In this document: piece after piece, positions 4,559 to 39,175 of the stretch
How the letters are laid out: every line of letters begins with the position of its first letter
Numbering within the stretch: position 1 is the first letter of the stretch
Notes under the pieces: model-generated
What the model saw: the letters and a program-made list of their open reading frames with translations, nothing else
What the model was told of the DNA's origin: nothing
The model's database searches: none
Source of the DNA: Closterium sp. NIES-65
Taxonomy: Eukaryota; Streptophyta; Zygnematophyceae; Desmidiales; Closteriaceae
Direction: 5' to 3'
DNA: 64,000 nucleotides
Assembly (NCBI GenBank): GCA_948144175.1
Contig: CANXME010002087.1
Location: forward strand, 2,973,501 to 3,037,500
Position numbers and translations under genes: made by a program

Positions 4559-7500
4559 CGAGAGGTGGGCAGCAGTGGCCTTGCCGATCTCCGTCTCCTT
4601 GAACGCCGCCTCAAACGCCTGCACCGGCACATAGTGGTATGGCTGGCTTTTCCCGCCCGCCCCACCATCTGCCCCAGCCGCGCCCCCCCTCCAGTACTGC
4701 CCTTGGTCCTTCATCGACGTCATCTCCTGCAGGAAATCCGCCTCGCCTTTCCTGGCAGGGCACTCCAAGCCGAGGCGGGAGAAGAAGGGAAGTACGTCCT
4801 CCCTGGGCCCGTGGAACACCACGTGCCCTTCTGCAAGAAACAGCACGTCGTCAAAGAGGTGGTAGGTCTCGAGGGCGGGCTGCAGGAGAGCCACGAGCGT
4901 GGTGGTGGCGTGGAGGTGCGTGGGGTGGCGCAGGCAGCGCGTGATGAGGAAGGTGGTGGAGGAGTCGAGCCCCGTGGTGATCTCGTCCATAAGCAGCACC
5001 TGCTGCCCGCCCACCAGGGATACGCCTGTGGTGACCCGCTTCTTCTGCCCGCCTGAGATGCCGCGTAGCATGTTGTTTCCCACCACTGTATCCGCACAGA
5101 TGTCCAGGCCTAGAATCTGACACGGGGGGGAGAGGGAAAGGGGGGGAAAGCGGCGGGAGCAGGGAGAGTGAGTTCAATCTGTAGCATGTTAAGCACTCTC
5201 CCATTACCTGACCACTTGGCATGATTGTGAGACAATCTGAGAAATAGCTTGTCTCAGAAACCTTTACACCTGGTAATTTCTAAACATGCTACCACCTATC
5301 CTGTCTGACATCACAATGAGCACATAGCCTCACCTCACCACCATGCTCACCACCATCCTCATCACCATCCTCAGCACCACCACCCCCATCAGCCTCACCT
5401 TGAGCACATAGTCCATGATGATGTTTGTGGGATTGCCCTCCAGTGCCATCGCCTAGCATGGAGAGAGGTGAAGTGGGGGGCCGGAGTAGCATGGAGAGAG
5501 GTGAAGTGGGGGGCCGGAGTAGCATGGAGAGGGGTGAAGTGGGGGGCCGGAGTAGCATGGAGAGAGGTGAAGTGGGGGGCCGGAGTAGCATGGAGGATTA
5601 ATAGTGATATGGACAGCAAGGGATGGAAGATACGTGGTATGTGGAGCACCAGGGGTGAAGGCAGGCAAGCAAAAGATCAACAGAGTGAATTCCCACACGC
5701 CGAAATGTTCACCCGATATCACAGCACCATACGCTCAACAGCGCACGAACACACTACCCACCTTCATGCTGCCATCATAGCACCTTACCTTCATGATGGC
5801 GTCCATAGTAGGGTCTGGCACAATGCCCTTCTCCGCCTCGCGCCTCTCCAGCTCCGCCACTAGTTCTGCACCACCAGGGGGTGCGGGGGTGAACGGGATA
5901 GAGAAGGGGGAATGTTGGGGAGAGGGGGGGGTGGACGGAGAGGGGGAATGGAGGCTATGGGGATAGCTGAGTGGGGTGAAACCGTGAGAGTATTAGTGGA
6001 AGAAATAGAGAGAAAAGGCCAGCGGAAACAGGAAATGGACTCAAACACAAAGAAGAACCCTCTTTCCCACACACATTTTGGTAGGCCCGGACCCTGCAGG
6101 CACGCAGAGGAGTCTGCACAACCCCCCTAACCCAAACCCCAGCGCAACCCACCCATCCAGCAGCCCACCATTCTTCCCCTTCCCAACATTCGCACATGCG
6201 CACCTTTGCGCAGCCCCGGGCCCTGCAGGCGCGCGGAGAAGTCAAGGGGCTGTGGCACAGACGCACAGACACCCACTATCCTTCCCAACACAACCCCCCC
6301 ACCCCACACACGTCTCAGTCAACCCACCTTAGCGGAGCCCCGGCCCCTGCAGGCGCGCGAAGAAGTCGAGGGTCTTTCCTTTGCTAAACCTCAACCCCCC
6401 CCCCCCCCCCACACGCGCACACACGCACCTTTCCGGAGCCCCGGGCCCTGCAGGCGCGCGGAGAAGTCGAGGGTCTCCCGGACGGTCATCTCGCCGATGT
6501 GCTCGTCGTTCTGCGGCACGTACACTGCTGTGCACTCTGGTACAAACTCGTTAAGAGCATGCCCGTTATAGGTCACGCTGCCTGATACCTGTGATAGAGG
6601 GAAAAGGAGGGGGAGGAGGGAAGGGAAGGGAAGGGGAGGAGGGGGAGAAGCGCTAAGGGTTTTGAGCCTCAATGGAGGTCACCCAGACCTTTGTTGCTGG
6701 CACATACGCTCAGGCCCCCAAGCGTATAGCGGATAAATCTCATACACACTAATTTTTTTTGGGCCGTCCGAGAACAAAAACGCAAATGTGATAGAAAAGA
6801 CGGATATCCCGCTAAGCGTTTTGCCTAACTAGAAATGCAAATCGGCCCTCTAGTCGGTCAAAATGTGGCTTCGAAGTTTTTTGCGGACGAAGTCACAACT
6901 GTATCGCACTGAAACCTACTCCATCTACGAACCCCAACCCGTCAAAACGAGGTCTCAGCAAACCTCTCACGCTACTTACCAGCCAGCCCAACCCTAAAGA
7001 CGTCATTTGTAGCTTTCAATCCCGCTTTCGTCTAGTTCTCGCCAACTTCCACCACTCCCACAGGCGCCGATGCCTGCTCTGCCTCCTTCGCCAACCGTCA
7101 TCGGGACTTGAGTTGATGTGAAGGCATGACCTAGTCAGAAAGATTTATCCCACGACCTGGCGTATTCTGAATCCACTCTCTAGGCGAATAGCGCATATAC
7201 CGTAAACACGTCTATTCCGACTTAGGCCAACGTCACTCTTGTGAGACCCCGAAACCCCCAGCTATTTTTCATAAGCTTTTAGTGGGTTTCTCGACAGTTA
7301 CTAGAGAATTAAAATATCGGTGATCAACTCTGCGCGCAATGTTGCCTTCACTCACATCCCGTTACAAAGAACGCACCTTGAGCGACTTATCGAGACATCC
7401 AGCGAGCGCCTGCAAGAGCGTTGACTTGCCAACGCCTGGCGGTCCCAGCAGCAGCGTCATGCGGCTCGGTCGCAGCACGCCCGAGCACCCATGCAGGATC

Positions 7501-8724
7501 GGATACGGGCGGCGCGCATCCAACTCCACGCCCAGTGAGTGCAGCGCGGCCTGAGGAGGAACCGGGGGGGGGAGGGTTGGGGAGGGTGGGGGGTGGGTGA
7601 GGAGGAAGAGGAAGATCCAAGGCGAAGACTTCTGAAACGGATACGGGCGGCGCGCATCCAGCTCCACGCCCAGTAGGTGCAGCGTGGCCTGAGGAAGGGT
7701 GTGGGGAGGGGTGGGAAGAAGGATGATTAAAACGAAAGAGCGACATTGGGGGATCAGGGAGTGAAGTGCGAATGTGCGCAGGCGACCGGGAAATGCGAGG
7801 GAAGCTGCTCGCATGACTCACGGCGAGCGCGACTCACGGCGAGTGCGACTCACGGCGAGTGCGATTCACGGCGCGCGAATGCGATTCGCGGCGAGCGAGA
7901 CTCACGGCGATCGAGTGCGACTCACGGCGATCGAGTTTCGCGTGAAGTTGAGGAGCGTGGGCAGCGCGCGCGTGCCGACGTACACGCCCGCCTCGACGTT
8001 CACGTCCTCGAAGCGCACCTCCACCGCCAGCACGGCCAGCCCCCCGCTGCTCGCGATTGGATGACATTCCGCGGCGCAGGTTTAGGAGGAGGGAGGAGGG
8101 AGGGATGGGAGCGGAAAGGAGGCGAAGGGGGGGAAGAGGAAGGAGGGAAGGTTAGATTACGCACAGCAAAGCGCATTCAAAACCGCATCCCGTACTTTCT
8201 CTGAAACAGTAACGTTGATCACACCTTGCATTCCCCTCATGACATCTCGATGCAACCCGTCAATGCAATTTCTCACAGCAACTTCTCTCAAGAAAGGAGC
8301 CATGCGGCTCGGCTCCAAGCTTTCCCAGCGATCCCCCGACTGTCTTCCAACGTCTTGTCGCCCGCGGTTCCGCGGCGGCGATGCTCAGCCGGCCTTGTAG
8401 AGAACCTCACCGGTCGAGGCGGGCTTTAAGCTTAGTAAGGAACGCCTCGTTGTCCTGATCGAGCGTCTCCAGCGCGCGCTCCACCAGCCGCTCCCGCTGC
8501 GCGTGGCTCAGCGCGCGCAGGTCTACTTGCGCCAGCTCCGCCGCCGCCCCCTTCTTTCCGCCGTCCGTCGCCGTGCCACTGCCCTGCAGGCTTCCGCTTT
8601 TGGGAAGCACCGATGTGTGCTGGCGGTTGGACGGGGGGAGCTGCTGGAGCTGCGCCCATGCTGCGGGGTTTACCGCCACTGGATCGTGTTTGCCTGCGGC
8701 GACGAGCGCAACGGGACAGGACAA
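4559..8724 (-). CDS. PDR/ABCG-type ABC transporter, N-terminal exons 1-7
   Basis: Seven exons join in phase: 8411-8724, 7926-8046, 7377-7550, 6429-6588, 5789-5865, 5399-5452 and 4559-5116 (486 codons). They match the N-terminal part of plant pleiotropic-drug-resistance ATP-dependent exporters. Exon 1 has the [10 protein letters not shown]...[15 protein letters not shown] helix. Exon 2 has [12 protein letters not shown] and RALPTLLNF. Exon 3 has Walker [10 protein letters not shown] (about residues 181-189). Exon 4 has [13 protein letters not shown] and [19 protein letters not shown]. Exon 7 has the signature [12 protein letters not shown], Walker B LLMDEI, D-loop TGLDSSTT and [18 protein letters not shown]. 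Introns are GT-AG. Exon 7 ends at a good donor (GTGCGT), but no further exon is visible before base 1; the membrane domains and second ATPase are missing or lie beyond a transposon-filled intron. The ATG at 8724 is provisional, because an acceptor-like CAG precedes GCAAACACG just downstream, so exon 1 may be a second exon. Confidence 0.88.
5457..5595 (-). repeat. 33-bp tandem repeat at the acceptor of ABCG exon 6
   Basis: About four copies of a 33-bp unit (plus strand AGCATGGAGAGAGGTGAAGT plus a GC-rich tail) lie in the intron directly upstream of exon 6. On the gene strand each copy is a pyrimidine-rich stretch ending CTCTCCATGCT; the last, partial copy reads CATGCTAG and supplies the actual acceptor at 5453/5452. 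The repeat thus multiplies the polypyrimidine tract of the 3' splice site. Confidence 0.85.
6076..6376 (-). repeat. Three extra copies of the 3' edge of ABCG exon 4
   Basis: The last roughly 49 bases of exon 4 plus the GTGCGT donor (edge at 6429) recur three times in the following intron, with edges at about 6328, 6204 and 6076. Each contains CGCGCCTGCAGG (or a close variant), a GGGGCT(C/G)CG core and a GTG donor-like end; similarity falls with distance from the exon. The copies are about 100-130 bp apart, so exon edge plus adjoining intron was duplicated as a unit. They are partial exons with no acceptor of their own. Confidence 0.85.
6589..7376 (-). other. ABCG intron 3, no recognisable element
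   Basis: This intron separates the Walker A exon from exon 4. Its middle (about 6690-7330) is less GC-rich than its surroundings, has stops in all frames and shows no LTR or tandem repeat. I see no gene in it. A decayed insertion is possible. Confidence 0.5.
7640..7688 (-). repeat. Extra copy of the 5' edge of ABCG exon 3
   Basis: The 49 bases after the CAG at 7691-7689 nearly repeat the first 49-50 bases of exon 3 (edge 7550), with the shared run GATGCGCGCCGCCCGTATCCG. The preceding CCTCAG acceptor is copied too. After the copy the sequence diverges and no donor follows, so it is a partial exon lying about 140 bp upstream of the real one. Confidence 0.85.
7812..7935 (-). repeat. Array of 5' splice-site copies after ABCG exon 2
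   Basis: On the gene strand, exon 2 ends ATCGCC followed by donor GTGAGTCGC (edge 7926). The motif CGCCGTGAGTC or a close variant then recurs about six more times over roughly 110 bases with spacings near 16-20 bp (plus strand GACTCACGGCGA). Several copies keep a perfect GTGAGT. The array begins in the last bases of the exon, so it multiplies the exon-2 donor. Confidence 0.85.
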
Positions 8725-9398
8725 CGAAGTTAGCAGTCAACGAAGTTATTTGTTTCTCTCTTCATTCGGTTGTACTACGCTAGCGTGCATCATAAAGTCG
8801 CATCCAAACACCGGAATACAATGCTGATGCAATGTTTGCAGATACTAATTTCTAGGGAGGCATGGCCGTATCATATTTCAACCACCGTTATTATTCCACA
8901 TCTGGCACCCGACACACCGCACCTTCGGGCCAATAAGCTCGTGAGATGCATCCATCACAAAAAACCCGCGTTTCCAATCTGGGGGGGTTGGGAACATTTT
9001 CGAGGTTGGGTTGTTTGGTTTGCGCAAGGAAACCCTGTTTTCGTCGAAGCGCAGTCTGCTCTTGGTCGCGCGTCAAAATTTGGTCACATTGAGTCTGACG
9101 CCCTGCACATCGAGCCGCGTCAGATTCTGACCGAGGGTTAGGCCTGGCAAATTCAGGCCAGGGTTGTTCCCATTTTAGGCCTGCTTTGTTATTGTATGAC
9201 AAGGCAAATTCGGACCAATTTTGGTCCAATTATAGATTGTTTAAAGTTGTGTAGATCATGCTTTGCTCTTTGAGACTTGTTATTTTATTACATGTATTTA
9301 TATAATTTGTAAATCTGATTAACAGAAACCAAAGTAACTTGTGTTCTAAAACATATTTATTTTATAACATGCCTACGCAGATGCATGCTTTCACTACA
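8725..9398. other. Upstream region of the ABCG gene
   Basis: No convincing coding segment is seen. The part from about 9180 is AT-rich. It would contain the promoter or a first non-coding exon of the ABCG gene if 8724 is close to the true start. No clear TATA box can be tied to a start site. Confidence 0.4.
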
Positions 9399-9803: not shown

Positions 9804-10059
9804 TGCATGAAAACCATCGTTATGCTCTGGATAACACTCTTATGTCATTAGGGCCGCACCCAGGTTTAGCTAGAAAAAACTGTGGTATCTCCATGCCACA
9901 TCTCAAGGAAGACGGGAGATAGGGAGGGCAGGAGAGAGTGGTGGATGGGGTTAGGGCGAATGGGGAAGGGTTGGAAGGATGATGGGTATGGGAACGGAGA
10001 AGGGGTGCTCCAGCCAGTTTCCAAGTGGCTAGTGCAGGTGGGGTCTCAACAAGGCTAGG

Positions 10060-11170
10060 GCCAGCCCAGAGGAGCACTCCTGAGGGTCCTTTGCAGGGGG
10101 TTGGCTGGAGTGAGGGTGAGGGGGATGCAGTGAGTCATGGAGGGAAACTGTGAGGGGGGGAAGGGGGGAGGGGTATTACTTCTTATCTGAGTGGATGGGG
10201 AAAGGTGGATGGGTTTGGGAATGGAAAAGGGGTGCTCCAGCCAAGTTCCTAGGGGGTCGTGCAGGTGGGGACTCAACAGCCCCACTGCCGGCCTAGAGTT
10301 GCACCCCTGTGTGTCCCGGGAGGGCATGGGCTGGAGTGAGGGAGAGAGGGATGAAGTGGGGCAGGGTGGGAAAGAGAGAAGGGGGCATTATTATGCCCCT
10401 TGCTGTTTCTGCAACTCAGATTGCAGAGTGTTGGGTGCCAGTTGTCTTGCAGAGGTGTTCCCATGCCTTGGAGCTGCCCCCGGGTGGCACATCTGAGGGG
10501 AACAAGGAAATAGGGAGAGAGGGCAGGAGAGAGGGGTGCATTAGAGAAGGGGGAATGGGGAAGGGGAAAGGTGGATGGGTTTGGGAATGGAAAAAGGGTG
10601 CTCTAGCTAGGTTCCTAGGGGGTCGTGTAGGAGAGGACTCAATAGCCCCACTACCGGCCTAGAGTTGCACCCCTGTGTGTCCCGGGAGGGCCTGGGCTGG
10701 AGTGAGGGAGAGAGGGATGAAGTGGGGCAGGGTGGGAAAGAGAGAAGGGGGCATTATCATGCCCCTTGCTGTTTCTGCAACTCAGATTGTAGAGTGTTGG
10801 GTACTAGTTGTCTTGCAGAGGTGTTCCCATGCCTTGGAGCTGCCCCCAGGTGGCACATCTGAGGGGAACAAGGAAATAGGGAGAGAGGGCAGGAGAGAGG
10901 GGTGCATTAGAGAAGGGGGGATGGGGAATCAACAGCCCCACTGCCGGCCTAGAGTTGCACCCCTGTGTGTCCCGGGAGGGCCAGGGCTGGAGTGAGGGAG
11001 AGAGGGATGAAGTGGGGCAGGGGGCATTATTATGCCCCTTGCTGTTTCTGCAACTCAGTTTGCAGAGTGTTGGGTGCCAATGTCTTGCAGAGGTCTTCCC
11101 ATGCCTTGGAGTTGCCCCCAGGTGGCACATCTGAGGGGAACAAGGAAATAGGGAGAGAGGGCAAGGTAGG
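10060..11170 (+). repeat. Long tandem repeat, three main copies of about 300-370 bp
   Basis: A unit containing GTTGCACCCCTGTGTGTCCC, then TGGAGTGAGGGAGAGAGGGA, then CTTGCTGTTTCTGCAACTCA recurs with the first motif at about 10300, 10667 and 10958. Partial copies extend left to about 10080 and right to 11290. The G-rich strand is the plus strand. The array interrupts the transposon remnant and has no coding content of its own. Confidence 0.85.
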
Positions 11171-11412
11171 GGGGTGCATGGGGGTAGGGTGAATGGGGAA
11201 GGGGGAAATCCGGTTGATTTGGGATGGTGGATTTGGTGGCTCCAGCCGGGTTCCCTGCAAATCCGGGTGAACCCTGTGCTGGAGTGAGGGAAAGAGGGAT
11301 GCGATGCAGTGAGGCATTGGAAGAAGAGGGAGGGGGGTGGAGGTGGGGGGGAGGGGAGTTGCCATTGCCTTGGTGGTTAGGGCAACAAATGTCAGCAAAG
11401 TGGAATTTGCAA

Positions 11413-24510: not shown

Positions 24511-27500
24511 ATGGTTCCGCTGCTCATCTGCCTGGTGTGCCTCATGGGCGGGTGCATGTGGTGGCTGTGCCGGCGCTGCCTGCACTCCGGCTCCACCGCT
24601 AGCAAGGACTGGCCGCCCGCCACCTACGACGAGTTTAAAGACGTCCCTAGAATCTGCCGCATCCTGCTGTCCGTCTACGAGGAGGATATCAACAGCCCGG
24701 TCTACAACGACCGTCTGGAGATTAATGACGTCGTGCGGCTCGCGGGGTACAAGGACACGCAGGGCCGGTGCCCGCCGTACGTGATCTACGTGGACCACGC
24801 GGCGCGCGACATCTGTCTCGCGGTGCGCGGGCTGAACATGGCCAACTTCGCCGACTACCGCGTGCTGATGGACAACCGCATCGGCAAGCAGCGCTTCGAC
24901 GGCGGCTACGTGCACCACGGGCTGCTCAAATCCGCCGCGTGGCTGCTCGACCAGGAGATGGAGACGCTCAACGCGCTCGCCGCGGAAAACCCGGAGTATA
25001 CGGTGACGCTCGCGGGGCACTCGCTGGGGAGCGGGATTGTCGCGATGATGACGGTGATTCTGCATAAGAACCCCGACGAGGTGGGGTTTGATAATGCGCG
25101 GCTTCGCTGCTTCTGCATCGCGCCCGCGCGGTCCACGTCCCTCAACCTCGCAATTAAGTACGCTGACATCATCAACTCCGTCGTCTTGCAGGTGAGCTGA
25201 CGTCTCCGGCGGTTCGTACACTCAGCGTGCTGCAGTTGTTCGTTTGGCCTCTCAACGTCATCCCCCCACCTCTCCCTTCGCCCCTCTCCCCTCGTCACTC
25301 CCCTCCACACCGGCTCCTCTTCTCTCGTCTGCCTTCTCTTCCCCTCCGCTTCCCCCCGCCTCCTTCCCCCCTCGCCCCGCGCACGTCGTTCCCCCTGCCC
25401 GCTCCCCCGCAGGACGACTTCCTTCCGCGCACGTCAGCACCCATCGATAACATCCTCGCGCTCTCCTTCTGGTATGCTCCTCCGCTCTCCTGGTATCCCC
25501 CACTCTTCTTCCCTCTATTCTTCTTTTACTCCCTTCCTCACTCTCCTTGCCTCACTCTCCTTGCTTCACTCTCCTTCCCCCACTCTCCTTCCCCAACTCT
25601 CCTTCCCCAACTCTCCTTCCCCCACTCTCCTTCCCCCAACTCTCCTTCCCCCACTCTCCTTCCCCCCACTCTCCTTCCCCCACTCTCCTTCCCCCACTCT
25701 CCTTCCCCCAACTCTCCTTCCCCCAAGTTCCTCCCTAGCACTTTGTCCCTCTCTCTTGTTTCCCCAACCATGCCATGCGCCCCCCACCTTTTCTCCCTTT
25801 CCCCCCACCCTCCTCAGTCTGCCATGCATGCTGTGCGTCAAGTGCTGCTGGGACTCGTGCGGGCTGTACAAGCGTCGCCTCAAGGACCCTCGCCGCCTCT
25901 ACGCGCCCGGTCGCCTCTTCCACATCCTCTACACCTCCGACTTCAGGTGGGGCACTGGGTAGGGCACAGGGTGGGGCACAGGGTGGGGCACAGGGTGGGG
26001 CACTGGGTGGGGCACTGGGCGAGGTGCTGGGAGAAGCACCGCTTCCTCGACCCTGCACTACACCGCCCACTTCAGGTGGGCCGCTCTGCACTGCACTGTT
26101 GCTGCCTTCAGGTGGTGCGTGGGGGCGGGGCAGGTGCAGTGGTGGTGTGCCGCTGCTCGTGTATCGCGTGGTCACTGTGGTGGTATATTCCTTCCGTCTG
26201 CACTGCATCCCGCTACTCCTGCTGTTACATGCGAGTGAACTGCCTGACAATTTCTCTCTCCCATACCCACTCTTGCCTTCCCCTCCCTGCTCACTCTCCT
26301 TCGCCCCGCATGTGTCCCCCACCTTCTTCCCACCATGTCAATAGAGGAGCATTTGACAAGTAACTTGCCTGCCACTCCCTCGTCCTTCTTCCCCCCTCTC
26401 CGTTCCCCAAAACCCTCTTCCCTTCAACCTGCGTGCGCCCTGGCCCCCCCAGCTGCCAGGAGGAGGAGCCACAGGTGAAGACCGCCGTACCGGTCGAAGA
26501 CCGCTTTGAAAAGGTGGTGCTGTCCCGCACGGCCATCGACGACCATTCGATCGTCATCATCGAGCGCCGATCAACGGTGGCGGTGGAGTCTCTAGAGCTG
26601 CGGGAACAGGCGGAGCAGGAGGAGGAGGAGAAGACACCCCCGGAGCAGCAGCGCATGAAGCGCTCTTCAACCATGAAGGAGCGCCAGCACCAGTACGCCC
26701 AGGCGCTTGAGCGCGCCCTCACTCTCCACGTGCCCGATGCCGCCAGCGCTGAGGAGATTCGGCAGCTGGTGGCTGCTGCTGAGGCGCGGGAGGAGGGGGT
26801 GAGTGATAGGGCGGTGCAGGGGCACAGGGCAGATAAAACGGGCGAGAAGGGAGATAAGGGGGACAAGGGGGAGAAGGTACAGGTGAAGGAGAAATCAGAA
26901 ACGATTGCACCTTCGCCAACAGCCGCAGCAGCAGGGGCAGTGGCAGTTGTTGCTGCTGTGGGGATGGAAGGCGGCAAGGAGGCAGTGGGAGGTGAGAAAG
27001 AGGCGGAGAGGAAGAAGGATGAGGACGAGACGAGCGAGAAGAGCGCCAAGAGCGAGACGCTGTCAGAGTTCTGGCAGAAGGAGCTGGAGGAGTTTCGGGC
27101 GAAGGAGAAACAAGCACTGCTGGAGGAAGAGCGGAAAGCCGAGGAGCGCGTGAGGCAGATTGAGGAGCAGAGCCGTGCGGACAAGGCAGAGAAGGCGGAG
27201 AAGCGCCGAGCGGAGCAGACGGGAGGGGAGGAGAAGGAAGAAAAGGGCGAGGAGGCGGAGAGTCTATCGGACTACTGGAGCAAGGAGCTGGCAGCGCTGC
27301 GGCGGCGCGAGGAGGTGGCGATGGTGGAGAGGGAGGCGCAGGCGGCTGAGCGCATCCGCGCGTTTGAGGAGAGGCAGAGGGTGGAGCGGGCGAGACGCGC
27401 CGAGGAGGGGGAGGCGGCCGAGCGGCTTTCGGAGTTCTGGGGAAGGGAGATGGACGGGGAGAAGGGGGAGGGGGAGTGGGCGGAGAGGGAGGTGGAGGGC

Positions 27501-28316
27501 GATGGGGAGGGGGTTGTAGGTGTGGGTGGGAAAGAGGGTGGTGATGGTGCCGTCTCTGCTGCCACAGCGCCTGCCGCTGCCGCCGCCGCCGCTGCTGCTG
27601 CTTTTGCCGCTGCTGGTGCTGCTGCTCGTTCTCCTGCTGCTACTGCTGGTGCTCCCACAGCAGGGGGAGGAGGGGATGTGGTGGTGGAGGTGGGCGATGG
27701 GGCGGCGCGAGGCCCGGCAGATGTGGCCATCCAGGTGGATGAAGGCACGGCGATGCTACCCAAGACACCTCCACCTGCCACTGCCCCTGCCCCTGCCACT
27801 GCCACTGCCACTGCTGCACGTGCAGCTGGGGCTGGGGCCAAGGGCGAGAAGAGCGAGGCAGAGCGCGACGGGCAGCAGCACAGGCACGCACAGTTGGGGC
27901 GGGCTTTAACCACCGCACCGCAGCAGCAGCAGCAGCCGAGGGTGGAGGCTGCAGCAGCGCGGCAGCAGATGGGGCGAGCGATCACTGTAGGGTCAGGGCG
28001 AGAGGAGGAGGCAGCAGCAGCAGCGAGGCTGTCTGCAGGAGGGGCAGCGGCAAGGGGGGGGCTGTCTGCAGGGGAAGTGGGGGGGACGGGGGGGACGGGG
28101 GGGACCCTGTCAGTGAGGCAGAAGTGGGCGCGTATAGTGGATGAGTTGATAGATGCGGGGGAGGGGGAGGTGCACGGGGGCACACGCGACGCCGCCGAGG
28201 CTCAGCTTCGGGAGGCGCAGAGGATCGGCAAGGAGCAGTGGCACAAGGCTCGGGCGGCGTTCCTGTCTGGTGTGGGTGGCCTGTCGAAGAAGGCCGGGAT
28301 GAACATTGAGATCTGA
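24511..28316 (+). CDS. Plant-type class-3 lipase (DAG lipase-like) with long C-terminal extension
   Basis: Four exons join in phase: 24511-25191, 25413-25471, 25818-25946 and 26453-28316 (910 codons plus stop). The N-terminus has a hydrophobic segment (VPLLICLVCLMGG), likely a membrane anchor. The alpha/beta-hydrolase core has GGYVHHGLLKSA and the nucleophile elbow GHSLG (Ser171). Exon 2 begins DDFLPRTSAP, the likely catalytic Asp (228/229); His321 in DDHSIV may complete the triad. Exon 3 carries CLPCMLCVKCC and LKDPRRLYAPG; exon 4 starts with VKTAVPVEDRFEKVVLS. This matches plant alpha/beta-hydrolases annotated as DAG lipase-like or calmodulin-binding; the reaction would be acylglycerol hydrolysis at a membrane. 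The last 450 residues are a charged, Ala/Glu-rich extension with three LSxxW units (about residues 493, 561, 615), longer than I recall for plant relatives. The ATG at 24511 just precedes the anchor. Confidence 0.92.
25482..25740 (+). repeat. Lipase intron 2: donor copy and pyrimidine tandem array
   Basis: Exon 2 ends CGCTCTCCTTCTG followed by GTATGC. Eleven bases later CGCTCTCCTG followed by GTATCC repeats the exon edge and donor (25484-25497). Then comes an array of CTCTCCTTCCCC(C/A)A units of about 12-15 bp (25560-25735) that forms a very long pyrimidine tract before the acceptor at 25817. Confidence 0.8.
25947..26115 (+). repeat. Lipase intron 3: donor array and copies of the exon-3 edge
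   Basis: The intron opens with about seven GTGGGGCACTGG/GTGGGGCACAGG units of 11-12 bp that include the donor itself. At 26058-26080, CTACACCGCCCACTTCAG plus GTGGG repeats the end of exon 3 (CTACACCTCCGACTTCAG plus GTGGG, edge 25946). A shorter CCTTCAGGTGG copy ends at 26111. Confidence 0.85.
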
Positions 28317-29931: not shown

Positions 29932-32900
29932 TCAAGCAGGGCGGTAGAGCTTGCGGTTGCGGAGGCCGTTCCAGAACTGCTTGGCTGTCATTGGTCGCTT
30001 GCTCTCTGGCTGCACCTCCAGCACCTGACTCATGCATGCACGCGCAGTGGGATGGGTGGGAGGCAGATGCAAGAGAAGGGGAGGGAGGGGGGGGGAGGGG
30101 AGGGCAGGGAAGATGTATGAGAGTGAGTGGACTGCATGCCTGTGATTGGTCGCTTGCTGTCTGGCTGTACCTCCAGCACCTGACATGCACACGCGGGCGC
30201 AATGGGATGGGTGGGAGGGAAATGTGGGAGGTAGATGTTGGGTGGGTAGTGTAGTGAGGGAGATGTAAGGGGGAGATGTAAGGGGGAGATGGATCACAGG
30301 CTGTGAGGGAGATGTAAGGGGGAGATGGATGACAGGCTGAATGAAGTGCTGCAGTGAAACAGGCCTCTTTTCCTGTGCCTGCAGCAGGTGAGCATGGCAT
30401 GCAGGTGAGCATGGCATGCAGGTGAGCATGGCATGCAGGTGAGCATGGCGCGCAGGTGAGCATGGCGTGCAGGTGAGCATGGCGTGCAGGTGAGCATGGC
30501 ATGCAGGTGAGCATGGCATGCAGGTGAGCATGGCATGCAGGTGAGCATGGCGTGCAGGTGAGCATGGCATGCAGGTGAGCATGGCATGCAGGTGAGCATG
30601 GCGTGCAGGTGAGCATGGCATGCAGGTGAGCATGGCATGCAGGTGAGCATGGCGTGCAGGTGAGCATGGCATGCAGGTGAGCATGGCATGCAGGTGAGCA
30701 TGACATGCAGGTGAGCATGGCATGCAGGTGAGCATGGCATGCAGGTGAGCATGGCATGCAGGTGAGCATGGCATGCAGGTGAGCATGGCATGCAGGTGAG
30801 CATGGCATGCAGGTGAGCATGGCATGCAGGTGAGCATGGCATGCAGGTGAGCATGGCATGCAGGTGAGCATGGCATGCAGGTGAGCATGGCATGCAGGTG
30901 AGCATGGCATGCAGGTGAGCATGGCATGCAGGTGAGCATGGCATGCAGGTGAGCATGGCATGCAGGTGAGCATGGCATGCAGGTGAGCATGGCATGCAGG
31001 TGAGCATGGCATGCAGGTGAGCATGGCATGCAGGTGAGCATGGCATGCAGGTGAGCATGGCATGCAGGTGAGCATGGCATGCAGGTGAGCATGGCATGCA
31101 GGTGAGCATGGCATGCAGGTGAGCATGGCATGCAGGTGAGCATGGCATGCAGGTGAGCATGGCGTGCAGGTGAGCATGGCGTGCAGGTGAGCATGGCGTG
31201 CAGGTGAGCATGGCGTGCAGGTGAGCATGGCGTGCAGGTGAGCATGCCACCACTCACCACCACCACTCACCACCACTGGCTGGTCACCTTGACTGCTCAC
31301 CTTGACCACTCACCTCAAGCACAGATCCATCACTGCACGGAACAAGCATGGCCTGCCCCTCCAGCCACACCTCCTCCACCTCCTCCGGTGCCACCGCGGG
31401 GGATGGTGGGGAGGAGGCGGGGGTAGCGGGGCGGGGCCGCGTGCGGAGGAGCTTGAGAGACACGTTGTCCACGTCGCCCGTCACTGGGTCCTTGGTTAGG
31501 AAGGAGGCTCGGGTGCCGGGCCAGGGGGGGAACGCCCGAACCTGGACGTGTGGTTTGGGTAAGAGGGAGGAGTGGAGGAGTGAGCACAGACGGAGCAATG
31601 GGGATGGGTGGGAAGGGAGGGAGTGGGTGAGAGGGCAATGGGCTGACCTGCAGGTGATGCAGGGAGGGTAACGGATGGGGAGAGATGGGAGAGAGGGACA
31701 ATGGCATGTCATAAGGCAGGGAATGCAGAATGATGTGCCAAGTGGAGTGCTTGTGGTGCAATCAGCTCAACTGAGAAAAGTGGAAAGGCGTGCGAAATGA
31801 GTTCAACTGCACTGAATCAGCAAGGTGCTGTGCTGAGCTCTCTTAAGGTTGCTCCACGCTTGTGCATGCAATACTTGAGGGGTAACACCACATAACCTGC
31901 AGAAGCTGCCATGCAAAGGAGTTCTAAACCTGTCATGGCATGTGGTGCTGTGATGGCATGTGGTGCTGTGAACGCATGTGGTGCTGTGATGGCATGTGGT
32001 GCTGTGATGGCATGTGGTGCTGTGATGGCATGTGGTGCTGTGATGGCATGTGGTGCTGTGATGGCATGTGGTGCTGTGATGCCATGTGGTGCTGTGATGG
32101 CATGTGGTGCTGTGATGGCATGTGGTGCTGTGATGGCATGTGGTGCTGTGATGGCATGTGGTGCTGTGATGGCATGTGGTGCTGTGATGGCATGTGGTGC
32201 TGTGATGGCATGTGGTGCTGTGATGGCATGTGGTGCTGTGAAGGCAGCACCTTGTTGTGCAGAGTGAGGGCTGGCAGAGAGAAGTTGAGAATGCCCTCCT
32301 CTGCTGCCACCTGCCATGAGAGGCAACCAGGCAGTCGTGGGAGGGCAGTCGTTGTTGTAATTGTATACAATATACAACATTCATAGGCTAGAATAGGTGT
32401 AGTCCTTTATGTTCTTGGGGGGTAGGGTGTACACTCCAACCACATGTGGTTGGTCAAGATTGGATTTGGTCATGGCCCTTGGTTGGCACTTGCCAACTTT
32501 CGGTCCTTAGACCAACCAATCCCAACCTAGCTACTTTGCGAGGTTTCCTACTCCACAAGGCACCTCACTCATTGGCCAACTTAGTGGCCAATAGGATTAG
32601 CTCCTCCTCCACCCTTCTCTTCCTTGCATGCTTGTATTACAGAGCCTTGTTGGCTCATTACTAAACACGTTCTTGAATTCTATCAGTCGTGGGAGGGCAG
32701 TCGTGGGAGGGGATTCAAGGGAGGGCAGTCATGCAAGGTGCAGAGATGAGAGGAACATCAGGACCCCCTCCTCTGCTGCCCCATGCAACCCCATGCAACC
32801 CCTTGCAACCCCATGCAACCCCATGCAACCCCTTGCAACCCCATGCAACCCCATGGAACCCTATGCAACCTCTTGCAACCCCTTGCAAGCCCATGCAACC

Positions 32901-35900
32901 ACTTGCAACCCCTTGCAACCCCTTGCAAGCCCATGCAATCCCTTGCAGCCCCTTGCAACCCCATGCAAGACCATGCAAGCCCATGCAATGTGGTGTTGCG
33001 CTGGCCCCACCTTAGCCGCGTGGGTAGCTTGGGAGTCGTCTTGCGGCGTCGCAGTGGCAGCCGCAGAGCCATCCAGCACGGCGGGCAGATGCTGCAGTAG
33101 CAGGTGCGTGCCTGGCGTGGGAGGGACAGGGGAGACAGGAGGGTGGGGGGGGAGGAAAGGTGTTGCACTTTGTGAGGCATCTCAGTGAGGGCAGATGCTG
33201 CAGTAGCAGGTGGGTGGAAGGCGGGAGGGGAGCCGAGAGAGAGGAGGGTGCGAGGGGGAGTGGGGAGAGAGAAAGAGGAAAGAGAAGGACGGCAGTGGGA
33301 AGGGACGATAGCATGGATGGTGCGGGTGATGCAGTGATGAGGTGAAAGATAGCAGCACGGTGGGATGCTGCATCGAAGTAGATGCAGCACGGTGGGATGC
33401 TGCATCGAAGTAGATGCAGCACGGTGAGAAGATGGGTGGGGGCTGTGGTGGGCTAGATGGGGTGGGGGCTGTGGTGGGCTAGATGGGGTGGGGGTTGTGG
33501 GTTGGGCAGTGAAGGCACCCCGATGAAAGAGGTCGTTGAGCAGTTCAGGTGCTTGCACGTCATCCGCTACCAGCACCCGCTCCTGTGCGATGATGGGGCC
33601 TGCATCCATCTGCAGCACCGTGTACGCCACTGTCACTCCTGTCTCTGCCACCCCTTGCTAGATGAGGAGGGAGGGTGGGGGGAAGGTGACTTATGGGTCA
33701 ACTGGAGAGGCATAAGCGCCCGCCCCCTCTCCTGTGCGATGATGGGCTCTGCGTTCACCGTCTGCACCGTGTATGCCCCTGTCACTCCCGTCTCTGCCAC
33801 TCCTTGCTGGCGAGGCCATAGGAGATGGGAGACACGGGGGGAGACACGGGGGGAAGACACGGGGGAAGACACGGGGGGAAGACACGGGGGGAAGACACGG
33901 GGGGAAGACACGGGGGGAAGACACGGGGGGAAGACACGGGGGGAAGACACGGGGGGAAGACACGGGGGGAGACACGGGGGGAGACACGGGGGGGAGACAC
34001 GGGGGGAAGACACGGGGGGAAGACACGGGGGGAAGACACGGGGGGAAGACACGGGGGAAAGACACGGGGGGAAGACACGGGGGGAAGACACGGGGGGAAG
34101 ACACGGGGGGAAGACATGGGAGGAAGACATGGGGGGAGGACATGGAGTGAAGATGCAGAAAGTTGCATGGCACAGAGGTGTGGTGTTGCATGGCACAGAG
34201 GTGTGGTGTTGCATGGCACAGAGGTGTGGTGTTGCATGGCACAGAGGTGAGGTGTTGGAAAGAAGAGGCAGCAAGGAGGTGGGGGTGCGATGGGGCAGGT
34301 GGCATCAGGAAGGCCGCAGTGAGTTGTGCACCGAGGTTGCTCAACACACTTTATCTTCCTCTGCTAAATAATAACAACTTATCGGCTGGCATGCCTGCCT
34401 GGAGGAAGGAAATTGGTGGAGGTGGGGAGAGGAAGGCGGGCCTTCGTGAAACCTGCTACTTCATCGCCCCTTGTTGACTCCACTGCCCCTTGTTGACTCC
34501 ACTGCCCCTTGTTGACTCCACTGCCCCTTGTTGACTCCACTGCCCCTTGTTGACTCCACTGCCCCTTGTTGACTCCACTGCCCCTTGTTGACTCCACTGC
34601 CCCTTGTTGACTCCACTGCCCCTTGTTGACTCCACTGCCCCTTGTTGACTCCACTGCCCCTTGTTGACTCCACTGCCCCTTGTTGACTCCACTGCCTCTT
34701 GTTGACTCCACTGCCCCTTGTTGACTCCACTGCCCCTTGTTGACTCCACTGCCCCTTGCACGTCTACCCTTGTTGCTCCTTCCTCCCCTCCTCTACCCCT
34801 CCTCTCCTTCCTTTCCCCTTGGTCACCTCTAGTGCTCGCTGCCACCCAGTGCCACCCAGTGCCACCCAGTGCCCCTCGCCACTCGCCCTCTCCTCTCCCC
34901 TTTACTACCCCCTACCCACCTCCTCAGCCCCTTTCCCACTGCTTCAGCTCCCTACCCGCCTGCTCACCTCCAGTGCTCGCTGCACGGGCGATGCTCCTCT
35001 GAACTTGGGGAGCAGGCTGGGGTGAATGTTCACAGTGCCTGCTCATGAATGGGGGTGAATGTTCACAGTGCCTGCTCATGAATGGGGGTGAATGTTCACA
35101 GTGCCTGCTCATGAATGGGGGTGAATGTTCACAGTGCCTGCTCATGAATGGGGGTGAATGTTCACAGTGCCTGCTCATGAATGGGGGTGAATGTTCACAG
35201 TGCCTGCTCATGAATGGGGGTGAATGTTCACAGTGCCTGCTCATGAATGGGGGTGAATGTTCACAGTGCCTGCTCATGAATGGGGGTGAATGTTCACAGT
35301 GCCTGCTCATGAATGGGGGTGAATGTTCACATTGCCTGCTCATGAATGGGGGTGAATGTTCACAGTGCCTGCTCATGAACGGGGGTGAATGTTCACAGTG
35401 CCTGCTCATGAATGGGGGTGAATGTTCACAGTGCCTGCTCACGAATGGGGGTGAATGTTCACAGTGCCTGCTCATGAATGAGGGTGAATGTTCACAGTGC
35501 CTGCTCATGAATGGGGGTGAATGTTCACAGTGCCTGCTCATGAACGGGGGTGAATGTTCACAGTGCCTGCTCATGAATGAGGGTGAATGTTCACAGTGCC
35601 TGCTCATGAATGGGGGTGAATGTTCACAGTGCCTGCTCATGAACGGGGGTGAATGTTCACAGTGCCTGCTCATGAATGAGGGTGAATGTTCACAGTGCCT
35701 GCTCATGAATGGGGGTGAATGTTCACAGTGCCTGCTCATGAATGAGGGTGAATGTTCACAGTGCCTGCTCATGAATGGGGGTGAATGTTCACAGTGCCTG
35801 CTCATGAACGGGGGTGAATGTTCACAGTGCCTGCTCATGAATGAGGGTGAATGTTCACAGTGCCTGCTCATGAATGGGGGTGAATGTTCACAGTGCCTGC

Positions 35901-38900
35901 TCATGAACGGGGGTGAATGTTCACAGTGCCTGCTCATGAATGAGGGTGAATGTTCACAGTGCCTGCTCATGAATGGGGGTGAATGTTCACAGTGCCTGCT
36001 CATGAATGGGGGTGAATGTTCACAGTGCCTGCTCATGAATGGGGGTGAATGTTCACAGTGCCTGCTCATGAACGGGGGTGAATGTTCACAGTGCCTGCTC
36101 ATGAATGAGGGTGAATGTTCACAGTGCCTGCTCATGAATGGGGGTGAATGTTCACAGTGCCTGCTCATGAACGGGGGTGAATGTTCACAGTGCCTGCTCA
36201 TGAATGAGGGTGAATGTTCACAGTGCCTGCTCATGAATGGGGGTGAATGTTCACAGTGCCTGCTCATGAATGAGGGTGAATGTTCACAGTGCCTGCTCAT
36301 GAATGGGGGTGAATGTTCACAGTGCCTGCTCATGAACGGGGGTGAATATCCACTAGGAATCCGCACAACTCACAGCCTCGATTATCGTGTTACGCTCACA
36401 ACACAAGAGCTTGCGTGTGAGGGATTTATGGAGGAGGGGCCAGGTGAGTGGAAGAGAGCGCAAAAAGAACCAAGAGAGTGCAAGAGAGCGCAAGAGGGTG
36501 CAAGAGAGTGCAAGAGAGCGTACGAGAGTGCAAGAGAGCGCAAGAGAGTGCAAGAGAGCGCAAGAAAGAGAGTGCAAGGGAGCGCATGAGAGTGCAAGGG
36601 AGTGCAAGGAAGAGAGCGGAAGAGAGAGCAAGAGAGCTCAAGGGAAAGGGACAGATGGGTGGATGCATGTGCTTACCTTGGAGCGGGATAGAGAGGAAGG
36701 AAGACGGGAGGAAGTTTCCATATGCTGCAGTGATGCACATGTCTGGCTGCAGGTGCTTCAGCGCCTCTAGGAAGGCGGGCTGGCAGCACATGGGGTTAGC
36801 GCAGCGCATCAAGAAAGGCCGGAGGGCAGTGCGTGGGCGTATTGTATTGGGTTGGGCGAGGGTGGAGATGTGCGGAAAGGGGGGGAATAATGCTTGATAA
36901 GGAGGGCGGGCAGGCGGCGCAAGAAGATATACGTGTGAGAGGGAAGGGGGGGGGGGGGGGGGGGGGTGGGAAGAATAAGTGGAGGGAGGGGGGTGAGGGG
37001 ATGGCGATGCAGGCAGTAAGTGGAAGGGTCCTCGAGTCTCGAGAAACACAAGTAGTTCGTACTAACGAGGAAGCACAGCAAGGACATTTGTGAAAGCGGC
37101 CAACAAAAGGTCAGGAGGGACAGGGAAAAGGACAGGAGTAACAGATCAGCGGGTGAGAGCAGCGGATGAGAGCAGCGGATGAGAGCAGCGGATGAGAGCA
37201 GCGGATGAGAGCAGCGGATGAGAGCAGTGGATGAGAGCGGCGGATGAGAGCAGCGGATGAGAGCAGCGGATGAGGACAGAGGCTGAGGCGAACAAGGGCG
37301 CACATCGCGAGCCGTGGCAGGCGAGAGGATACGGTCGGGCGGCAGGCCGCGATCTGCTGCCAGCTGTCCCACGGCGGTCGGCTGCAGCTGTCCTTTAGTG
37401 CGCCCCCTGCCCCGGCTGGACGGCGGCTGCGTTACCACCGCCGCCACCTGGTGGGGTGAGCGTGCATGGGGGATAAGAGGGGGGAGGGCGGGGAAGACGG
37501 GCGGGGAAGAAAGGCGGGGAAGAAGGGGGGGAAGAGGTAGGTGGGAGGGGGTAAGGAAATGGGAAAGAGTTGCGAATGGCGTGGGAGGCAGAGAAAGTAG
37601 GTGGTGGGAAGAGGCAGCAGTGTAGCGGGAGAAGGGGGTGGGGGAGGCAGCTTGCGAGGTGATGCGATGCCATGGGGAAGGTGTAGCTGGCGGGGGGTGG
37701 CAGGAAGCAGAGATGATGCAACATGGGAGAAGCAAGGGGGCAAACAAGAAGCAAGGGGGGAAACAAGAAGCAAGGGGGGAAACAAGAAGCAAGGGAGGAA
37801 ACAAGAAGCAAGTCAGAGTGCCGTATCCACCAGTGGCGGCCCACCGATGCACGCGGCACATTGGAGCTGCACGCGGCACATTGGAGCTGCCCTTTCGCTG
37901 TCCAAGATTGGATCTTCCTGCGTGTTCGCCTGCCCGTTAGCCTGCCTATCAGCGGGTACGGACTGACCTCAAAGAGCGAGTGCGGCTGCTGAGCCGCGTC
38001 CAGCAGTCGGCCCAACACCCCCGCCGCCACCTGCGCGCGCAGGAGGAGAGGGGAGGGGAGGGGGACAGAAAGGGAGGGGGGGCGGGCGGGGCGGGGAGGA
38101 GGACAGAAAGGGAGGGGGGGCGGGCGGGGCGGGGAGGAGGACAGAAAGGGAGGGGAGGGGGCTGGGAGCAGGATATAAAGGGAGGGGAGGGGGGGGGGAG
38201 CAGTGAGTCCAACACTCCCGCTGCCACCTGCACGAGGGGGCGGGGAGCGGGGGCGTGGCGATGCAGGGAGGGAACAGGAGGGGATGACGAGAGGTGGGGA
38301 GGAGGGGAGGAGGAGAGGTGGGGAGGAGAGGAGGAGGAGAGGTGGGGAGGAAGGGAGGAGGAGAGGTGGGGAGGAGGGGAGGAAGGGAGGCAAGGAGGGG
38401 CGGAGGAGAGGTGGGGAGGAGGGGAGGCAGGTAGGAGGGGAGGCAGGGAAGGGGGGAGGGGGGAGGAGGGTGCAAAAGAGTAGGACGAAGCGGGGATTGG
38501 CTGGGGTGAAGCGGATATGTGGGGGCGCACGAAAACACTGCGAAGCGGCGAACACGGCGGGGGAAATGAGGGGCGCAAAGGAGAGGCGCGTGGTGGGATG
38601 GCGCGGAGGAGAAGCGCGTGGTGGGATGGCGCAGAGGAGAGGCGCGCGGAGGGAAGGCGCGGAGGAGAGGCGCGCGGAGGGATGGCACAGAGCAGAGGCG
38701 CGCGGTGAGATGGCGAGGAGAAACGCGCGGTGGGAGTTGGAATGCCGCTTAGGAGAGGCACGTGGTGGGATGGCGCGGCGGAGAAGAGGCGAGGAGAGGA
38801 AGGTTGGCGGTGCACAGACGTGCAGTGAGCAGTAGCGCAGTGAGGCGGGCCGCTGCAGACTTTGCAGCCCAGCAATCGCTGTCGGTTCTAGCTCGCCCGA

Positions 38901-39175
38901 CCCACCTCAGGCGACCCGAGAAATACAAGCTTCTTCTTGTCCCCGCTAGAGGAACCTCCGCTTTGCGCGCTACAGGAAACGTATCGACGGTGGCGTCCAG
39001 CGGGCACTAGGAGAAGCTTGACGGGGAGCGCGAGAGGGCGACTCAACAGCCATCTGAAGCCGCTGGATACGCGCGTCAACGGCTGCATCGGGCAAAGTAT
39101 AGACGGTGACATTATCGATCCTACGCAGGGAAATCTTACGGGATCTCTAGGTACTTGGATGAAATCGAGTCCCAA
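29932..39175 (-). CDS. Methionyl-tRNA formyltransferase, organellar, ten exons
   Basis: Exons, all GT-AG and in phase: 38906-39175, 37968-38030, 37304-37447, 36677-36779, 34968-35038, 33519-33657, 33011-33111, 32251-32310, 31314-31541, 29932-30024 (423 codons from the first ATG). The enzyme transfers a formyl group from 10-formyl-THF to Met-tRNA for initiation in mitochondria or plastids. Evidence: [10 protein letters not shown] at the start of the Rossmann fold, [29 protein letters not shown], the formyl-THF site [17 protein letters not shown] (Asn197, His199), [16 protein letters not shown] with Asp235, and a C-terminal domain with [12 protein letters not shown] and SAK-type [11 protein letters not shown]. 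The N-terminus (Arg/Ser/Leu-rich, few acids) is a probable transit peptide; ATGs at 39112 or 39088 are alternative starts. The gene looks intact. Introns are packed with minisatellites and exon-edge copies. Confidence 0.93.
30030..30235 (-). repeat. Partial duplication of formyltransferase exon 10 and its upstream intron
   Basis: A copy of the acceptor plus the first 38 bases of exon 10 lies at 30142-30179 (GTGCTGGAGGTACAGCCAGA...), about 155 bp upstream of the real exon (edge 30024). The intronic flank (GGGATGGGTGGGAGG) is duplicated with it. The copy keeps phase 0 but no donor follows. Confidence 0.85.
30386..31250. repeat. 17-bp minisatellite in intron 9, about 50 copies
   Basis: The unit GCAGGTGAGCATGGCAT repeats with only A/G changes in GGC(A/G)TGCAG. 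Because three units make 51 bp without stops, all minus frames stay open for 300-590 codons; these are not genes. On the plus strand each unit contains CAGGTGAGC, but the gene is transcribed from the minus strand. Confidence 0.95.
31926..32242. repeat. 18-bp minisatellite in intron 8, about 17 copies
   Basis: Unit GTGCTGTGATGGCATGTG. The array starts about 10 bases after the exon-8 donor at 32250. It is open in several frames on both strands by periodicity only. Confidence 0.95.
32353..32685 (+). repeat. Solo LTR in intron 7 of the formyltransferase gene
   Basis: A 333-bp segment starting TGTTGTAATTG and ending TTCTATCA, flanked by the perfect 5-bp duplication GTCGT (32348-32352 and 32686-32690). 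It shows no similarity to the TE2 LTR that I can see, so it belongs to another LTR family. It separates exon 8 from its partial copy at 32737. Confidence 0.85.
32737..32995 (-). repeat. Degenerate copy of exon 8 and a CCATGCAACC array, intron 7
   Basis: On the gene strand GGCAGCAGAGGAGGGGGTCC (about 32765-32783) resembles the start of exon 8 (GTGGCAGCAGAGGAGGGCAT), followed by a decayed remainder to 32737. To its right lies an array of 10-bp units CCATGCAACC/CCTTGCAACC (32782-32990) that reaches the exon-7 donor. Confidence 0.7.
33189..33425 (-). repeat. Copy of the start of exon 7 and a 30-bp repeat, intron 6
   Basis: CACCTGCTACTGCAGCATCT (gene strand, about 33191-33212) exactly repeats bases from the start of exon 7. 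Further upstream a 30-bp unit containing GATGCAGCACGGTGGGATGC is present two to three times (33348-33425). Confidence 0.8.
33728..33806 (-). repeat. Near-complete extra copy of the 5' part of exon 6
   Basis: After a CCAG acceptor (edge 33806) about 78 bases repeat exon 6 (edge 33657): the peptide reads [27 protein letters not shown] against [27 protein letters not shown]. The catalytic Asp position is Asn in the copy. Phase 0 is kept, but the second half of the exon and the donor are missing. Confidence 0.88.
33826..34254. repeat. 13-bp and 23-bp minisatellites in intron 5
   Basis: About 23 copies of GACACGGGGGGAA (33826-34140) are followed by four copies of a 23-bp unit TTGCATGGCACAGAGGTGTG-GTG (34163-34254). 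They are not coding. Confidence 0.92.
34470..34755. repeat. 20-bp minisatellite in intron 5, about 15 copies
   Basis: Unit CTTGTTGACTCCACTGCCCC, nearly perfect. Reading frames across it ([13 protein letters not shown]...) arise from the 60-bp common period. Confidence 0.94.
34827..34843 (-). repeat. Copy of the 3' edge of exon 5
   Basis: AGCGAGCACTAGAG plus GTGACC repeats the exon-5 end GCGAGCACTGGAG plus GTGAGC (edge 34968), about 140 bp into the intron. Confidence 0.75.
35029..36349 (-). repeat. 33-bp minisatellite: about 40 copies of the exon-5 acceptor junction
   Basis: On the gene strand each unit is CATTCATGAGCAG (13 intronic bases ending in AG) followed by GCACTGTGAACATTCACCCC (the first 20 bases of exon 5). 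Only the last copy at 35038 continues into the rest of exon 5. Copies differ mainly at ATTC/GTTC and CCCCC/CCCTC positions. In the reading phase of exon 5 every upstream copy contains a TGA, so splicing to any but the last acceptor would terminate translation. The long frames of about 480-514 codons on both strands are artefacts of the 11-codon period. Confidence 0.95.
36440..36655. repeat. AGAGAGTGCA-type repeat in intron 4
   Basis: Irregular units of about 10-12 bp (GCAAGAGAGTGCAAGAGAG) lie between the exon-4 donor and the 33-bp array. Confidence 0.8.
36780..37303. repeat. Intron 3 with a 15-bp repeat and a G tract
   Basis: Nine copies of AGCAGCGGATGAGAG lie at 37143-37275 just after the exon-3 donor, and a run of more than 20 G lies near 36946-36967. 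No coding content. Confidence 0.85.
37448..37967. repeat. Intron 2 with a GCAAGGGGGGAAACAAGAA repeat
   Basis: About four 19-bp units at 37735-37812, and a doubled GCACGCGGCACATTGGAGCT segment at 37849-37890. No coding content. Confidence 0.8.
38031..38905 (-). repeat. Intron 1 with purine-rich arrays and a copy of the start of exon 2
   Basis: GTGGCAGCGGGAGTGTTGGA after a CAG (edge 38227) repeats the first bases of exon 2 (GTGGCGGCGGGGGTGTTGG, edge 38030). Two 41-bp copies of a GGAGGACAGAAAGGGAGG unit lie between them. GGAGGAGAGGTGGGG units (38290-38460) and GGAGAGGCGCGCGGAG units (38570-38790) follow. Confidence 0.8.

Follow-up and report, generated by a model that had tools for sequence, protein, structure and literature searches.

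Exon edges and their splice sites are repeated, in tandem units, inside the adjoining introns of many genes of Closterium sp. NIES-65, and outside the locus in which an initial annotation had noticed them these copies are under coding constraint. The locus is a window of 64,000 nucleotides (the whole stretch of DNA that was analysed; C1789:2973501-3037500 of an assembly of 874 Mb in 2400 contigs), in which a PDR-type ABCG gene, a lipase-like gene and a methionyl-tRNA formyltransferase-like gene carry such copies. The best account, which on balance we hold to be probable, is that tandem duplication of segments spanning a splice junction makes spare edges which recombine with the edge in use, and that this recombination exposes the spares to coding selection.

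The frequency of recurrence was determined in 16 genes with 179 introns of at least 60 nt, namely 13 genes modelled by spliced alignment and the three window genes. Loci were supplied by five families, which had been named in advance; three were taken whole (ChlH, PEPC and phosphorylase; nine genes), four genes (ValRS, IleRS and two aconitases, from families PF00133 and PF00330) were chosen after the hit tables had been seen, and the counts were split into whole-family and picked genes. The loci omitted in PF00133 and PF00330 were C376/C1855, C461/C1983, a second ValRS on C1749/C946 and C1992, and the aconitase-like C1541/C1723 and C1831/C1894 as well as L027 (C122) were also omitted. A second ValRS-like match lies on C1749 near position 2305608, some 55 kb away from the first one, which is on that contig too. 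When the 40 exon bases at each edge were aligned with their own intron and a score of at least 28 was taken as the cut-off, recurrence was detected for 40 of 173 donor and 42 of 171 acceptor edges, with 0.12 and 0.27 expected from the edges of other genes, which reach this score in 0.07% (donor) and 0.16% (acceptor) of trials. Because four genes had been picked after the tables were seen, the total over all genes is inflated: the picked genes account for 25/42 donor and 23/41 acceptor edges, the nine whole-family genes for 14/113 and 12/112, and the window genes, at the same cut-off, for 1/18 and 7/18. A fair estimate is that roughly one edge in eight or nine recurs, far over the control, and the copies thus extend beyond the window. 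Bases 41-80 from the edge recur too (26/133 and 26/137 over all genes), as long copies require. Within the whole families, nearly all copies reside in ChlH2, GP2 and GP1; PEPC1-3 have one recurring edge in 29 introns, ChlH1 none in 5 and GP4 none in 13. The Prp8 family offered no edge to examine, having one match per locus, free of introns (in C718:1111826-1113043 the PROCN region of Prp8 lies in a single intron-free frame; most of the sampled genes have many introns). In a check on HSP90, overlaps of more than 20 model positions were confined to one gene and its second copy; on C1978, a match to positions 172-222 precedes that to 172-411, with the same start, and a match to 378-421 follows it, with nearly the same end, both lying at edges.

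Counting the best six copies per edge (six were reached at 4 of 82 edges), at least 154 copies were found in 82 edge arrays. The nearest copy is 100-200 bp away in 63 of the 82 arrays and 115-175 bp away in 53; units shorter than 90 bp occur in four, and a 33-bp array in the window is a fifth (its nearest member among the copies listed at 1023). Plain tandem arrays are exemplified by ValRS intron 10, with copies at 139/278/417/556, and GP2 intron 3, with copies at 147/295/443/591. Donor copies tend to lie in the first half of the intron (46/65) and acceptor copies in the last half (45/57). In young arrays the homology is unbroken over the whole unit, exon and intron parts alike, so that it crosses the junction into the intron in one contiguous unit, as in the potato gene discussed below; in many older pairs of copies the intron part aligns no longer. 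The splice dinucleotide, GT or AG, is intact in 107 of the 122 copies retained for the coding counts below, and the copies displayed carry their own polypyrimidine tracts.

Units of 90-260 bp entirely within exons were not found, as selection would have it. Arrays touching an exon edge number 86 of 99, where the geometry of random placement predicts 44%, and the notion that tandem duplication is random and merely becomes visible at edges was rejected, as it predicts 56% intron-only units and 13 of 99 were found. Touching and intron-only clusters stand at 39:12, 58:22, 66:21 and 75:23 when 39, 36, 33 and 30 matches of 40 are demanded, and many of the intron-only clusters in these counts sit in short-unit minisatellites; purely intronic units of 145 bp would be detectable in 95.6% of cases. 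When only sequence windows free of exon-derived sequence were considered, 20 of 26 units spanned a junction (P 0.0008), and 14 of 20 at a stricter cut (P 0.02). The preference for junctions at birth is therefore moderate, and much of the 86/99 is owed to the exon part surviving longer. Intergenic and retroelement DNA (120 kb) had 3 of 72 periods in the range of 115-175 bp, and being mostly transposons it is a poor control. Intron 5 of L035 (a phosphorylase gene; 4177 nt) consists largely of a minisatellite with a period of 8 or multiples of it, and its differences from the allele include blocks of 946 and 829 bp.

Many loci are present twice in the assembly; much of the window, for instance, has a second copy on C1512 that is 98-99.6% identical. 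Such pairs are called alleles here and could instead be segmental duplicates. For arrays comparable at the cut used, copies were found in both assembled locus copies, and in 6 of 34 arrays the copy number differs between alleles by whole units: the length differences are 121 and 3x121 bp in GP2, 227 and 155 bp in Aco1, and 128 and 3x139 bp in ValRS, and GP2 intron 10, with steps of 121 bp, has 13 copies in one allele vs 10 in the other. Copy and used edge can also change places, which was observed once, in aconitase. In intron 10 of Aco1, an intronic copy precedes the used acceptor of the C1863 allele by about 155 bp. The C2019 allele is without the outer unit, and its used polypyrimidine tract, acceptor and exon head, joined there to the remainder of the exon, are exactly those of the intronic copy of C1863. 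The heads differ at 5 of the first 26 bases, all silently as judged by reading. At a further site, the C1863 intronic copy has changed R to H and C2019 has R, which places the join before the R/H site. A scan of 159 edges for such promotions gave seven shifted edges, of which this one was accepted. Aco1 3A, GP2 7D and MTF 4A were rejected as ties inside arrays or near-ties, Aco1 4D and GP2 12D since their anchors lie in the duplicated exon head, and GP1 8D as an exon insertion; GP1 2A had no matching flank. Where alleles agree in copy number and the array has three or more members, 22 allelic differences were seen; for 5 of these both states occur elsewhere among the members, and four of the five fall in used edges of Aco1, which hints at conversion.

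For the coding counts, units shorter than 90 bp and exon homologies of less than 30 bases were omitted (32 of the 154 copies; GP4 has none), leaving 122 copies, and removal of 10 further copies with a repeated pattern in one array left 112 copies in 73 arrays. Compared with the used edge, the 122 copies show 511 silent and 308 changing codon differences, distributed over the codon positions as 157:162:603, and 10 stops. The 112 copies show 485 silent and 295 changing differences, which corresponds to a per-site ratio of changing to silent differences of 0.197 (0.15-0.26 by bootstrap over arrays); for free copies beside an equally constrained exon a ratio of about 0.53 is expected, if both mutate alike. 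The ratio is lowest, 0.08, in the 18 copies that are at least 95% identical (27 silent, 7 changing) and rises to 0.37 in the 28 least similar ones (<85% identity), which contain most of the gapped codons. It is alike in whole-family (0.188) and picked genes (0.182). Changes private to one copy, and hence arisen there, comprise 96 silent and 66 changing ones (ratio 0.22), and those private to the used edge 36 and 6 (ratio 0.055). As the third-position excess holds for each of A, C, G and T (about 2-11 times), base composition does not explain the low ratio. These counts show that the copies outside the window are under coding constraint.

The main rival explanation, which we judge unlikely, is that the copies are themselves coding, serving as alternative or mutually exclusive exon ends in some mRNAs, and are selected directly. 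The low ratio and the mostly intact GT or AG are in its favor, and seven of the 122 copies do reach the far end of the exon, for example in Aco2 intron 5, where both splice sites are present. Against it, the other 115 stop short of that end, so are without its other splice site and have no evident route into an mRNA; the distances from the used edge are not limited to multiples of three (41, 31 and 50 copies per class), which argues against read-through; and stop codons interrupt 10 copies.

According to the initial annotation, tandem duplication across splice junctions is a mode of intron growth in which the new edge is retained and the old, inner one decays. Duplication as a source of growth is borne out by introns that gain and lose whole units between alleles, and the new edge does appear to be retained, since the outermost edge is the one keeping the protein continuous; on this basis, and not on RNA, the outermost site is considered the used one. 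Free decay of the inner copy as the full explanation is quite improbable in our view. It accommodates the unit structure, the ratio of 0.57 on 35 codon differences in the window genes, and the higher ratio and gapped codons of the copies below 85% identity. It is at odds with an upper bootstrap bound of 0.26 where about 0.53 is expected, with the value of 0.08 in the most similar copies, and with the role swap in aconitase. Decay of the old edge is thus supported in the window genes, on six copies, and contradicted outside the window by the ratio of 0.197 and by that one swap.

Very improbable is a role of the copies as decoy or regulatory splice sites kept for the tuning of splicing. The intact dinucleotides in most copies and the polypyrimidine tracts of those displayed fit decoys and spares alike, and a decoy needs the site only and has no need of the amino-acid sequence encoded by tens of exon bases; moreover, the copy number varies between alleles. 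We give almost no credence to an artefact of assembly or haplotype merging, which might be suspected because many loci are present in the assembly as two nearly identical copies: the arrays lie at the same places in both locus copies, which differ at 0.4-2.4% of bases, and array members mostly differ from one another. Scarcely credible, too, is intron gain via tandem duplication of an exonic AGGT segment, which shares with our account the tandem duplication and expects intron starts to resemble downstream exon starts and intron ends to resemble upstream exon ends, since this was the case for 1 and 1 of 152 introns (0 and 1 in shuffled pairs) and the copies hold intron sequence with polypyrimidine tract and acceptor. 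Dispersed intron-making elements (introners) would place one sequence in many introns of different genes; with exon edges only as queries, 0.07-0.16% of trials against the introns of other genes reached score 28.

The account favored here, junction-spanning duplication followed by exchange between spare and used edges, would proceed as follows. Tandem duplication would act on segments, mostly of 115-175 bp, lying across an exon-intron junction, as the structure of the arrays shows; the outermost site would stay in use and the protein would remain unchanged, while the intron would gain a unit with a spare edge and splice site. The arrays would then grow and shrink by whole units, as seen in the allele pairs. 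Sharing about 30-200 bp of exon sequence, used edge and spares would recombine, and loss of the outer unit would promote a spare to working edge, as was seen once, in aconitase; short tracts may be converted as well, as a few sites suggest. By such exchange with the used edge the spares would be exposed to protein-level selection, which would make them constrained even though they lie outside the predicted mRNA. Spares grown too dissimilar would drop out of exchange and decay, as the copies of the window genes seem to do. In size the units come close to a nucleosome or an Okazaki fragment, and it may be speculated that replication of nucleosomal DNA sets the unit.

Several observations weigh against this account. 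That exchange is frequent enough for selection to act through it is so far an assumption; a clear promotion was seen at 1 of 159 edges, and 17 of the 22 allelic differences inside arrays are private ones, of the kind expected from plain mutation. Only 25 of the 122 copies are without any amino-acid change and 10 contain a stop codon, so that many copies are already damaged; the ratio of 0.57 in the window genes (6 copies; 14 silent and 21 changing differences) is near the free-decay value. PEPC1-3, ChlH1 and GP3 hold almost no copies. The gene models were built by alignment to proteins of E. coli or to paralogues (identity 38-60%), and some edges are off by a few bases or a micro-intron. With poorer labelling, junction vs intron-only counts, minisatellites apart, were 5:16, 5:20 and 6:25, figures that are superseded because exon copies inside introns had been scored as intron.

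A wider proposal is that introns of this lineage constitute a genome-wide store of interchangeable exon edges under coding constraint, whose spares arise from junction-centred, nucleosome-sized duplications and rotate through the working position; to this we give slightly less than even credence. If true, exon ends would evolve in concert with introns, and recombination alone would hold untranslated DNA under protein-level selection. Intron growth and the accuracy of splice-site choice beside near-perfect copies are old questions with few live examples, and in the present genome two copies of one locus have grown to different extents by whole units spanning the junction. Should exchange be the cause of the constraint, codon-biased conservation could no longer be taken, as it usually is, always to signal translation; should the cause be direct use, alternative splicing of an unfamiliar type would be widespread. 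In both cases the system offers a test of how the spliceosome chooses between numerous equivalent sites, one intron having about 40 acceptors.

Tandem exon duplication with mutually exclusive splicing repeats whole exons with both splice sites. The present copies are like it in that coding-constrained exon sequence is repeated in introns, and differ in that only the 7 of 122 mentioned above reach the far end of the modelled exon. Minisatellites undergo concerted evolution by unequal exchange. Tandem units, allelic change in copy number (by whole units in the 6 of 34 arrays) and homogenisation are common to both, whereas the units here are mostly 115-175 bp, straddle splice junctions and have an outermost member that is partly protein coding. 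A single duplication crossing a junction is known already: for a potato RdRp gene, one tandem duplication crossing an intron-exon boundary is reported, by which former exon sequence is now intronic (PMC4974935). The likeness lies in the boundary-crossing duplication and in splice signals inherited from the parent junction; the potato case concerns one gene and one duplication, whereas here many genes, donor and acceptor sides and arrays of up to 13 copies are involved, and allelic copy number, coding constraint and one role swap are added. Some novel Drosophila introns are ascribed to coding sequence that contained a proto-splice site and was tandemly duplicated (PMC2891723); regional tandem duplication with intronisation of one copy is shared, whereas an exonic unit creates the intron there and introns pre-exist and the unit spans the junction here. 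In the polyubiquitin gene UBC, dual-specific splice sites are described in which AGGT works both ways and the repeats are ubiquitin monomers (PMC10809524); tandem repeats bounded by splice-like sites are found in both, with the repeats lying in introns here. For exchanging arrays of exon edges no counterpart was found in searches of the open-licence literature, which is weak evidence of absence.

In the window, exon models were based on reading frame for all three genes and also on homology for the formyltransferase. The host genes are:

4559..8643, minus strand: PDR-type ABCG gene, 7 exons inside the window, start codon unsettled, family name by reading
24516..28316, plus strand: lipase-like gene, 4 exons, start codon unsettled, family name from the initial annotation
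29932..39112, minus strand: methionyl-tRNA formyltransferase-like gene, 10 exons, host of most window copies

The 36 edges of the 18 window introns were aligned with their own intron, the best copy only being considered, and each was compared with 200 block shuffles and 17 other introns. The initial annotation had listed twelve edges as repeated in their own intron, and 11 of these exceed all 200 shuffles and all 17 other introns; the twelfth, the lipase exon 2 donor (copy at 25493), is weaker (p 0.02). Edges above all shuffles are the exon 2 donor, exon 3 acceptor, exon 4 donor and exon 6 donor of the PDR/ABCG gene, those of exons 2, 5 (acceptor and donor), 6, 7 (33221), 8 and 10 of the formyltransferase, and the exon 3 donor of the lipase (26076). 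Weak additional edges are the PDR exon 5 donor (p 0.005) and the formyltransferase exon 4 acceptor (p 0.02), and none of the remaining edges among the 36 rises above its own shuffles. The PDR exon 4 copies at 6326 and 6074 and the lipase copy at 26112, which is weak, were measured by extension only. The strongest copies are those of the PDR exon 3 start and exon 4 end and of formyltransferase exons 6, 10 and the start of exon 5. The copies, with the position of the true edge where given, are:

7815..7935, minus strand: PDR/ABCG exon 2 donor array of short units with exon end and GTGAGT; score 34, reached by 0/200 shuffles and 0/17 other introns
7638..7718, minus strand: PDR exon 3 acceptor copy, edge 7688, true edge 7550 (138 bp); 47/51 exon columns identical
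6294..6375, minus strand: PDR exon 4 donor copy 1, edge 6326, true edge 6428; exon side 44/49, intron side 25/34
6176..6251, minus strand: PDR exon 4 donor copy 2, edge 6203; exon side 44/48, intron side 21/28
6068..6114, minus strand: PDR exon 4 donor copy 3, edge 6074, the most diverged; exon side 31/40
38199..38231, minus strand: formyltransferase exon 2 acceptor copy, edge 38227, true edge 38030; by alignment and extension
35019..36347, minus strand: 33-bp x40 array, the unit containing CAG, the junction and 19-20 bases from the head of exon 5, which itself lies at 35038-34968
34823..34842, minus strand: formyltransferase exon 5 donor copy, edge 34827; by alignment with its own intron
33719..33808, minus strand: formyltransferase exon 6 acceptor copy, edge 33806, true edge 33657; exon columns 73/88
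33189..33216, minus strand: formyltransferase exon 7 start copy, true edge 33111, acceptor AG lost; by alignment and extension
32766..32786, minus strand: formyltransferase exon 8 start copy, true edge 32310, acceptor AG changed to AT, marginal; by alignment and extension
30131..30267, minus strand: formyltransferase exon 10 acceptor copy with upstream intron, edge 30179, true edge 30024; exon 44/49, intron 68/96
26039..26080, plus strand: lipase exon 3 donor copy, edge 26076, true edge 25947; by alignment and extension

The marginal exon 8 copy (32782) scored 32 vs 31 for the best shuffle. Homology of the PDR exon 3 acceptor copy reaches 34 columns into the intron, 25 of them identical. Since homology also continues across the splice site for 96 columns upstream of the edge in the exon 10 copy and for about 30 columns downstream in PDR exon 4 copies 1 and 2, the copies are marked as tandem duplicates of genomic DNA rather than as copies made from spliced RNA. 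The array unit beside formyltransferase exon 5 holds the acceptor and 20 exon bases, the exon starting after CAG with GCACTGTGAACATTCACCCC; splicing to an upstream unit would, by reading, run into a TGA that the unit contains.

A streptophyte alga is suggested by the PDR-type ABCG gene and by the style of the introns. For the Closterium psl complex, introns averaging 485-554 bp and numerous gene duplicates in haploid cells are reported (PMC10407611). L038 (C1642:3266401-3270100), a glycogen phosphorylase gene, has introns that mostly measure 77-94 nt, and none of its 13 introns holds an edge copy; its GC content at third codon positions of 0.63 is the lowest of the 16 genes (the next is the formyltransferase with 0.66) and its exon GC is 0.53, so that it perhaps belongs to a different organism within the assembly or to a distinct gene class. 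A Copia-type reverse transcriptase frame (by reading) at 3855-4514 of the window directly follows the last PDR exon in the window (4559), so that the second half of the PDR gene is displaced or lost. Intron 9 of the formyltransferase contains a 17-bp x51 array at 30384-31246, and the second locus copy is about 590 bp shorter between exons 9 and 10. Finally, a 366-bp unit is present twice at 10193-10928 with 95% matches, and related stretches extend to about 11200 in the comparison with C1512.

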